This document shows positions 32,006-59,167 of a stretch of 64,000 bases of DNA, piece after piece. A model generated the notes under the pieces. It did not search any database. It was not told the origin of the DNA and saw nothing but the letters and a program-made list of their open reading frames with translations. The position numbers and the translations under genes were made by a program. Position 1 is the first letter of the stretch. Each line of letters begins with the position of its first letter. The DNA comes from Sphaerobacter thermophilus DSM 20745 (GTDB taxonomy: Bacteria > Chloroflexota > Chloroflexia > Thermomicrobiales > Thermomicrobiaceae), in NCBI RefSeq assembly GCF_000024985.1, contig NC_013523.1, forward strand, positions 1,550,001 through 1,614,000, in the 5' to 3' direction.

Positions 32006-32252
32006 CATCATCCTCCTGTTACGCACCGTTGCGTAGGGGCAAGCGTCGTCATCGTCGCGGGCGGCGATGGGGACTACGCCGCCGAGACAGGGGACGGGCC
32101 CGCGGCAAGCGCCGGCGCGCCGCCGACCGTGCCGTACCGCCCCGGGCACCCCCGGTGTCCGGCTAGGTACGAACGAGATCGGCGCCTCGGGACGATCGCC
32201 ATGGTCACGCCCCTTCCGGTCACGCGGGCCTCCAGTGACGTGGCCTTAAACG

Positions 32253-32565
32253 AGACGAGCCTTTCTCCCATTCAGGGACGAAAGGCTCGTCTTCCGCGGT
32301 ACCACCCTGGTTGATAGGCGGTCTGTGGTGGAGCTGAGGGGACTCGAACCCCTGACTTCAACACTGCCAGTGTTGCGCTCTCCCAGCTGAGCTACAGCCC
32401 CGCGCCTATCCGCTCTCAACCCGATAACGGAGGTTACCCGGTGACGACTACCGGCGGTCGCCCTCACCGTCACAGCTCCCGGGCGAGTTCGGCCTCTGCG
32501 CTGCCTCGCACCTCCCGGCAGCTCGCTGTCGATACGGCCTACTACTCCCGTTCGACGCCTTTACC
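32253..32565 (-). promoter_or_regulatory. Leucine-specific T-box leader of leuS, interrupted by a tRNA gene
   Basis: Read on the - strand. Stem I features: GGAGTAGTA near the 5' end, CAGCGAGC (the AGAGAG-type motif), a distal GGTGCGAGGC loop, and a specifier loop GAA-CTC-GCC followed by CGGGAGC. The specifier CTC (32487-32485) encodes leucine. The T-box sequence proper, AGGGTGGTACCGCGG (32308-32294), is canonical. It runs into a terminator with a 13-bp perfect stem, AGACGAGCCTTTC with GAAAGGCTCGTCT (32292-32253). The helix before the T-box (GATAGGCG with CGCCTATC, extended by GGTT with AACC) encloses the complete tRNA-Ala gene at 32326-32401 in place of a short loop. Uncharged tRNA-Leu(GAG) is the expected ligand. 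Confidence 0.9.
32326..32401 (-). tRNA. tRNA-Ala(GGC), nested in the leuS leader
   Basis: A complete cloverleaf: acceptor GGGGCTG with CAGCTCC (one G-U pair), D-arm AGCTCAGCTGGGAGAGC, an anticodon stem of five pairs with loop CTGGCAG (anticodon GGC), T-arm with GGTTCGAGTCC, discriminator A, and an encoded CCA at 32328-32326. All standard invariant positions are present, so a functional tRNA is likely. It is on the same strand as leuS and lies downstream of the predicted leader promoter. Confidence 0.96.
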
Positions 32566-32606
32566 ACTGTGAAGGATGCGGAGGGACGCGCCCTCCGCCG
32601 ACCGAA

Positions 32607-32636
32607 ATGGTAGCACAGCCCTGCTCTCAGTGTCAA
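32607..32636 (-). promoter_or_regulatory. Promoter of the T-box / tRNA-Ala / leuS transcript
   Basis: On the - strand TTGACA (32636-32631), 18 bases, then TACCAT (32612-32607). The -35 is perfect and the -10 matches four of six. The predicted start is near 32600, about 35 bases before stem I, so leader, tRNA and leuS should share one transcript. Confidence 0.6.
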
Positions 32637-32743
32637 ACGACTCTCGGTCCTGGCTCGGCCGGGGCAGACATGCGCCTCAGGCTCCGCGACGACCCCGGCA
32701 CGCCACCGCCACGTGTTGTGCCGCTCGCGTCGCCGCATCCCCG

Positions 32744-33610
32744 TCAGTCGCCCCGCGGTCCCCGCTCCCGCCGCCTCGGTGCCTGCGGCTGGTACGGGAT
32801 CGGTACGTACTCCACACTGGGCCGCCGCTGCACCGACTGCGGGTAGAGATCCATCAGTGCATAGATCTCCCGCGGCATCTTGTCGCTCACCGGGAGGCCG
32901 AGCCCGCGCGCCTGCTCCACGTCGATCGGGTAGTCGTGGGTCCACTGTCCGCCGCTCAGGGCGCGTGCAGCGCGGTCCGCCTCCTCCGGCGGGAGATGCT
33001 TCACCAGCAGGTTGTATGTTGTCGCGTAGACCTGCTCGAGCGCCTTGCGTGCCATGTCACCCAGGATCAATGTCTGGTCGTCGCGATTCGGGTTCGGCTC
33101 CTCAAGCGCCTTCAGGATCGAGGCCGCGGGGTAGGAGCCGCCCTGTGGGCTGCCGAGCTGCGGGTCCACCGGGCCGAGCACGGCGTCGGGGTCCATTACG
33201 ATCTCGTCGGCACCGAGCGCGATGAGAGTCCCACCAGACATGGCGTAGTGCGGGACGAAGACCGTTACCCGCCCCTTGTGACGCCGCAGCGCCTCAGCGA
33301 TCTGCTCGGCTGCCAGTACCAACCCACCCGGCGTGTGGAGCACCACGTCGACCGGCATGTCCTCCGGCGTCAGCCGGATGGCACGCAGTACCTGTTCCGA
33401 GTCTTCGATGTCGATGTAGCGGGCGATCGGGAAGCCGAGCAGGCTCATCGTTTCCTGGCGGTGGATGATCGTGATGACGCGCGAGCCGCGCATCCGCTCG
33501 ATCTGTCGAATCATCGACCGGCGCCGCGCTGTCTGGATCTGTCGCTGCAGCACGGGGACGAATAACTGGAGCAGGATGATGAGCCAGACAACGTTCAGAA
33601 TATCGCCCAT
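32744..33610 (-). CDS. SDH-type (ClpP-class) membrane serine protease
   Basis: From ATG 33608-33610 (GAGGG ribosome binding site) the product is 288 residues with an N-terminal transmembrane segment (about 5-22). The body matches the serine dehydrogenase proteinase family PF01972: VVLHTPGGLVLAAEQIA forms the oxyanion region, and the nucleophile serine is in HYAMSGGTLIALGADEIVMD. The C-terminus is Arg/Pro-rich. These proteases resemble SppA and probably act on membrane or exported peptides. It is divergent from an NfeD-type protease 153 bases away. Confidence 0.88.
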   Translation of the reverse strand: MGDILNVVWLIILLQLFVPVLQRQIQTARRRSMIRQIERMRGSRVITIIHRQETMSLLGFPIARYIDIEDSEQVLRAIRLTPEDMPVDVVLHTPGGLVLAAEQIAEALRRHKGRVTVFVPHYAMSGGTLIALGADEIVMDPDAVLGPVDPQLGSPQGGSYPAASILKALEEPNPNRDDQTLILGDMARKALEQVYATTYNLLVKHLPPEEADRAARALSGGQWTHDYPIDVEQARGLGLPVSDKMPREIYALMDLYPQSVQRRPSVEYVPIPYQPQAPRRRERGPRGD

Positions 33611-47132: not shown

Positions 47133-47144
47133 GAAGCCAGCAAG

Positions 47145-47269
47145 ACCTTCGGGGCAGGGTGCGGCGCGCAGCGCCAATTCCCGACCGGCGGTGATAGCCC
47201 GCGAGCGGCGCAAGCCGCAGGATCCGGTGGAATTCCGGAGCCGACGGTATAGTCCGGATGGGAGAAGGT
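47145..47269 (+). promoter_or_regulatory. FMN riboswitch (RFN element)
   Basis: The aptamer is closed by ACCTTC (47145-47150) with GAAGGT (47264-47269). Conserved RFN blocks are all present in order: TTCGGGGCAGGGTG, AATTCCCGACCGGCGGT, AGCCCGCGAGC, GATCCGGTGGAATTCCGG, AGCCGACGGTATAGTCCGGATGG (quoted in parts). It binds FMN and normally switches off riboflavin synthesis or uptake genes. A factor-independent terminator follows directly, so control is by attenuation of the downstream ABC transporter genes. Confidence 0.95.
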
Positions 47270-47291
47270 TGCCACCTATCCCGCATGGCGC

Positions 47292-59019: not shown

Positions 59020-59093
59020 GCCCGCGTAGCTCAGCGGATAGAGCCGGGGCGTCCTAAGCCCTGTGGTCGGGGGTTCGAGTCCCTCCGCGGGCG
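59020..59093 (+). tRNA. tRNA-Arg(CCT)
   Basis: The cloverleaf is complete: acceptor GCCCGCG with CGCGGGC, D-arm AGCTCAGCGGATAGAGC, anticodon loop GTCCTAA with anticodon CCT, T-arm with GGTTCGAGTCC and discriminator G. The 3' CCA is not encoded (CCG follows). It reads the AGG codon. Confidence 0.94.
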
Positions 59094-59167
59094 CCGTGCA
59101 TCAGGCCGGTGGAGCAGGACCTGCTGCACCGGCCACCGGCTCGAGCGGAAACGCGAAGGAGGCCGCC

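Follow-up and report, generated by a model that had tools for sequence, protein, structure and literature searches.

A tRNA-Ala(GGC) gene nested in stem III of the leucine T-box leader of leuS in Sphaerobacter thermophilus and other bacteria

The leader of leuS in the stretch of the Sphaerobacter thermophilus genome analysed here (64,000 nucleotides, hereafter the window, to which all coordinates refer) is probably a transcriptional T-box for leucine in which an intact and seemingly essential tRNA-Ala(GGC) gene caps stem III, a single transcript serving both, a reading to which we assign a probability of about three in four. The nesting, its conservation, the intactness of the parts, the positions of the promoter-like site and the terminator, and the single copy of the tRNA gene are properties of the sequence, from which co-transcription, processing and T-box switching are inferred.

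The leuS leader of S. thermophilus

The leader and leuS lie on the minus strand. The Rfam scan of the window aligned the T-box model RF00230 end to end (model positions 1-219) with 32564-32271 at 94.5 bits, where the gathering score is 93 bits, and the alignment, interrupted by the tRNA, leaves 76 nt over in the stem III loop. This leader is one of 11 T-box matches in the S. thermophilus genome. The specifier codon CTC (Leu; 32487-32485) lies in GCCGAACTCGCC of stem I, ahead of leuS, and the cognate tRNA-Leu(GAG) is present in the genome as a single copy. Stem III is formed by the 5' arm GATAGGCG (32410-32403), identified from the sequence and from covariation in relatives, and the 3' arm CGCCTATC (32320-32313), with GAGCG before the former and AA directly after the latter (32312-32311), so that the motif RRRNG-stem III-AA is present. 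The T-box motif AGGGTGGTACCGCG (32308-32295; sequence and RF00230) follows as the 5' strand of the antiterminator with its UGGU bulge, and a hairpin of 13 + 4 bp (32292-32253), located 3' of the tRNA, competes with the antiterminator as the terminator. The fold of 32310-32252, which spans this hairpin, has an energy of -34.4 kcal/mol (z -6.0), while the T run after it is weak (CGTTT) and a rule-based terminator search gave no call there. Downstream, leuS is an open reading frame (29531 to about 32011) encoding a leucyl-tRNA synthetase of 826 amino acids when read from the first ATG of MMMTTAKQ.

The tRNA-Ala(GGC) gene occupies the terminal loop of stem III (32401-32326; tRNA model 66 bits), and RF00230, the tRNA model and ARAGORN agree in placing it, complete, inside the leucine T-box of leuS, as a preliminary description of this DNA had done. 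It contains the features of a functional tRNA-Ala gene, namely a cloverleaf, the GGC anticodon, G3:U70 and discriminator A, and it encodes CCA (32328-32326). The linkers between the tRNA and stem III are 1 nt on the 5' side and 5 nt on the 3' side (32325-32321, after the CCA). As the sole Ala(GGC) gene among the 49 tRNA genes of the genome (3,993,764 bases in two contigs), where Ala(TGC) and Ala(CGC) are sited elsewhere, it is presumably used by the cell. The minimum free energy fold of 32601-32309 has the cloverleaf capping stem III with an ordinary total energy (z -0.9), while a longer fold including the antiterminator prefers pairings other than stem III, folds of long T-box leaders being unreliable.

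A promoter-like site, TTGACA-18-TACCAT with TG before the second hexamer (32636-32607; 10 of 12 matches to the consensus), is the sole one within 32230-32800 (shuffle mean 0.0), and the consensus scan of this region gave none between stem I and the tRNA. The site lies ahead of both the leader and the tRNA, where the preliminary description had placed its predicted promoter.

Distribution and conservation of nested leaders

Genomes were searched with a pattern consisting of any tRNA T-loop followed 22-52 nt on by the T-box motif, which is blind to the isotype of the tRNA and gave one match in the window and none in 100 shuffles of it. The pattern occurs in 31 of 158 genomes of the host's class and, in a collection of genomes at species level, in at least 120 stretches. 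In its relaxed form it matches 33 of 350 Chloroflexota genomes, 67 of 299 in the sample of the Desulfofundulus phylum (Bacillota) and 16 of 43 Armatimonadota genomes, while in the Syntrophomonas class 39 of 63 genomes match the strict form. A raw match is not equivalent to a nest, as 7 of the 78 loci retrieved from the class and phylum searches contain no recognisable tRNA (two of these being masked or cut); the other 71 have a nested Ala(GGC), and no other isotype occurs among them. ARAGORN applied to the tRNA-bearing matches listed called Ala(GGC) for all save one, a tRNA-Asp(GTC) at locus L110, which was rejected as a T-box nest and regarded as a chance match, as it has neither leuS nor stem III arms. 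Six members of the Syntrophomonas class missed by the pattern were checked: five contain a nested Ala(GGC), that of L244 is interrupted, and the T-box motif is slightly different in all six. The reversed control pattern gave no match in the class and phylum searches, and 151 genomes of Bacilli contain no true case of a nested tRNA, their two pattern matches both being without a tRNA.

Nesting in related genomes, for which the preliminary description had suggested a search, was found at no fewer than 182 distinct loci in Chloroflexota, Bacillota, Armatimonadota and several lineages represented only by metagenome-assembled genomes (MAGs); every one of them has Ala(GGC) as the nested tRNA, and nearly all have CTC as the specifier codon. 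Isolates with the nesting include Syntrophomonas wolfei, S. palmitatica, Desulfofundulus thermosubterraneus, D. thermobenzoicus, Desulfovirgula thermocuniculi and Orenia metallireducens, and the closest named relatives among the matches listed belong to Sphaerobacter sp. (LeuS identity 95.5%). Nests assigned to Coprothermobacterota, Caldisericota and Actinomycetota take these phylum names from the titles of single or few MAGs. In a Symbiobacterium-labelled MAG (L077, positions 200-313), the nested tRNA is without its 5' half, owing either to faulty assembly or to decay of the gene.

leuS lies behind essentially every nested locus having enough sequence, and is not always the first gene: other sequence may intervene, among it ilvE in Armatimonadota (L099) and a gene for an AMP-forming acyl-CoA synthetase in the Desulfofundulus and Pelotomaculum group, both names being readings of the translations made independently of a family search; at one locus (G752), leuS starts about 2.8 kb from the nested element. 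In Desulfofundulus/Pelotomaculum-like Bacillota (L040, L059, L086, L103, L113, L135 and L316), the gene read as AMP-forming acyl-CoA synthetase follows the leucine T-box directly, a position in which it would be under leucine control, and it precedes leuS at those loci whose sequence extends that far. Copies of the tRNA were counted with a pattern specific for Ala(GGC), a tRNA pattern with two mismatches being too loose for counting; of 65 nested genomes that match it, 57 have no match besides the nested copy.

Selection was assessed on 123 distinct nested loci. Discriminator A is present in all 123 tRNAs and G3:U70 in 122, all seven acceptor pairs are intact in 121, U stands at position -1 in 81, and CCA is encoded in 85 and not in the remaining 38. 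Judged by the discriminator, G3:U70 and the acceptor pairs, the nested gene is under selection as an alanine tRNA. The arms of stem III pair at 5.14 of 6 positions, as compared with 3.88 when the partners are shuffled among loci (at most 4.09 in 500 permutations), where the anchoring step was identical for observed and permuted arms and the relatedness of the loci means that the permutation does not give a strict probability. A-T, G-C, C-G and T-A swaps were each seen at several stem III positions, and the linkers between tRNA and stem III in relatives have a median of 6 nt (0-45) on the 5' side and 7 nt (0-29) on the 3' side. By the kept CTC and the covariation of the stem III arms across the tRNA, the nested T-box is likewise under selection. 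The T-box motif and RRRNG-stem III-AA are also retained, and both parts, tRNA and T-box, look functional.

Alanine tRNAs upstream of leuS and the history of the nesting

Alanine tRNAs also occur in front of leuS outside stem III. In five Thermomicrobium-like relatives (L229-L233), a tRNA-Ala(GGC) is followed by a T-box with a short stem III and then by leuS; a -10-like sequence stands just before the tRNA (with a clear -35 in L232), and about 50-60 nt separate the tRNA from stem I, where no promoter is apparent by eye. In such sister genera, with the tRNA upstream of stem I, co-transcription with leuS would be kept although no cut could fall between sensor and switch. Ktedonobacteria and some Anaerolineae contain a tRNA-Ala(CGC) upstream of stem I in addition to the nested Ala(GGC), and in two genomes (f14) Ala(CGC) alone stands ahead of leuS. 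The sensing domain lies between two alanine tRNAs at L264-L278 and at several loci from Anaerolineae (L060, L099, L100, L109, L114, L127, L129, L136 and L150). Chloroflexus-type genomes (G006 and G014) have an Ala(CGC)-Ala(GGC) tandem away from leuS, and the Ala(GGC) tRNA of another genome (G114) is located elsewhere than in the leuS leader.

In a quick LeuS tree (FastTree), nested loci fall on the side of Chloroflexota and Armatimonadota as well as on that of Bacillota; its support is rough, and it mislabels as nests L253, which is without the T-box motif, and L077 with its incomplete tRNA. This distribution is consistent with an old nesting with losses and some transfer. At L001 (G029:C275), a near-tandem of Ala(CGC) and Ala(GGC) is followed by a T-box motif and a terminator, and the T-box looks like a decayed one, as the gap separating the tRNAs is too small for stem I. 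Elsewhere in the S. thermophilus genome, a tRNA-Val(GAC) precedes the thrS T-box by about 70 nt (L327; G000:C1:513258-512871, minus strand), where, in contrast to the leuS case, a hairpin resembling a terminator, T run included, separates the tRNA from the T-box.

Proposed shared transcript, alternative explanations and related systems

One promoter would give rise to a transcript containing stems I and II, the tRNA, the antiterminator/terminator and leuS. As the tRNA sits before the T-box terminator, it would be made in both states of the switch, so that every initiated transcript would yield tRNA-Ala(GGC), with leuS on or off, while transcription would continue into leuS only if the antiterminator is stabilised by uncharged tRNA-Leu(GAG). 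Passages found in one T-box study describe stem III and its flanking purines as indispensable for the T-box discriminator, with stem and loop varying (PMC7583486); the tRNA thus occupies exactly the part that is free to vary, while the helix beneath is kept. Since the tRNA sits in this variable loop, the helix and the flanking purines, which the aminoacylation sensor needs, should still be able to form, and the T-box would still switch with the tRNA in its stem III.

RNase P would trim the 5' end of the tRNA. Its binding is reportedly inhibited when the 5' leader pairs with the 3' RCCA, according to the portion of the study consulted (PMC9433436); as the pairing of the leader here lies in stem III, beyond short linkers, cutting is plausible though possibly slowed. 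The 3' end would probably come from nucleases other than RNase Z, to which the preliminary description had given a share in the processing: the encoded CCA sets the tRNA apart from RNase Z substrates and makes this enzyme a poor candidate here, the 3' CCA being described, in the part of the source consulted, as its primary antideterminant (PMC4919913). The preliminary description had also expected processing to cut the sensor from the switch, with a possible link between leuS control and maturation of the tRNA. The halves left after tRNA excision could, however, be joined by the stem III helix, so that the cut need not disable the switch.

Why the tRNA has been retained in this place may be explained differently. 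It is possible, though not the favoured view, that the tRNA was inserted once in a tolerant loop and kept there as the sole essential copy with no benefit from sharing the transcript, an explanation which is compatible with the shared-transcript mechanism and differs from it in the reason for retention. An essential single-copy tRNA is undeletable, so its long retention alone could be an accident, and the single copy in most nested genomes as well as the tRNA sited elsewhere in some relatives (the Chloroflexus-type genomes and G114) fit such an origin; against it, non-nested members of the family often still have the tRNA in front of leuS, and Ktedonobacteria and Anaerolineae have a second alanine tRNA in the same leader. 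These last two observations suggest that the shared leader is itself useful. It is unlikely, in our judgement, that the sharing goes as far as regulation, where an RNase P cut in the nascent stem III would separate stem I from the antiterminator and the speed of processing would limit how long leuS stays inducible (with the nicked halves perhaps held together by the helix of stem III). Across phyla the tRNA keeps its place between sensor and switch, the pairing of stem III is maintained across the insertion, the linkers are mostly short and the frequent U at -1 suits RNase P; yet the linkers also vary widely in length, and the sister genera that link tRNA and leuS without nesting indicate that the coupling is not essential. 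Equally doubtful is the idea of a composite device, in which alanine tRNA maturation and leucine tRNA sensing would be mechanically coupled: RNase P would excise the tRNA from stem III, the helix would keep the halves together or release them, and production of the alanine tRNA and induction of leuS would tune each other.

Two further explanations have far lower probabilities. As a decoy in cis, the nested tRNA might pair through its free ACCA end with the UGGU bulge of the antiterminator just downstream and compete with tRNA-Leu, and the invariant discriminator A fits UGGU; this is very improbable and was rejected, as nearly a third of the nested tRNAs (38/123) encode no CCA, and the match is unspecific, since tRNA-Leu generally has A73. 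That the tRNA stands beside an unrelated leader by chance or by an assembly artefact can be given practically no weight, being refuted by the large number of distinct loci, from isolates as well as MAGs, always with one isoacceptor and leuS, by the reversed control and by the absence of a real case in Bacilli.

The nested leaders share with the leuS T-boxes of Bacilli the leucine specifier in stem I, the RRRNG/AA-flanked stem III, the T-box motif, the terminator and leuS, whereas the Bacilli leaders examined (L248-L250) have no tRNA nearby and the nested loci have a complete tRNA capping stem III. The thrU-tyrU-glyT-thrT-tufB operon of Escherichia coli gives a mixed tRNA-mRNA transcript, from which tRNAs lying side by side with the gene are cut out. 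As in that operon, a tRNA and a protein gene appear to share a promoter and a transcript here, whereas the tRNA is nested in a folded regulatory RNA whose ligand is a different tRNA. Extra sequence in stem III is likewise tolerated by those T-boxes, mostly translational ones, that have insertions there (PMC7583486); the inserts are not described as genes in the passages found, while those of the nested leaders are a conserved tRNA in seemingly transcriptional T-boxes. The full-text literature searched, for the most part open papers, does not describe any T-box that contains a tRNA gene, and the passages found in Wels 2008 and in the TBDB paper do not mention a tRNA gene inside the leader, in line with the view of the preliminary description that the arrangement is undescribed. 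A whole class of T-boxes may thus have been annotated with its nested gene unnoticed, and an exception has to be made in T-box models where stem III is a short hairpin. The nested leaders provide a natural test system for the folding, switching and cutting of a riboswitch when an essential tRNA must leave its sensing domain, and allow one to ask whether a T-box discriminator split into two strands is functional, and by what means a tRNA and a synthetase can be expressed from a single promoter with regulation of just one of the two.

Apart from the leuS leader, the window contains on the plus strand an FMN riboswitch (47141-47273; 96.8 bits) and a tRNA-Arg(CCT) gene (59020-59095), which is present as a single copy in the genome.
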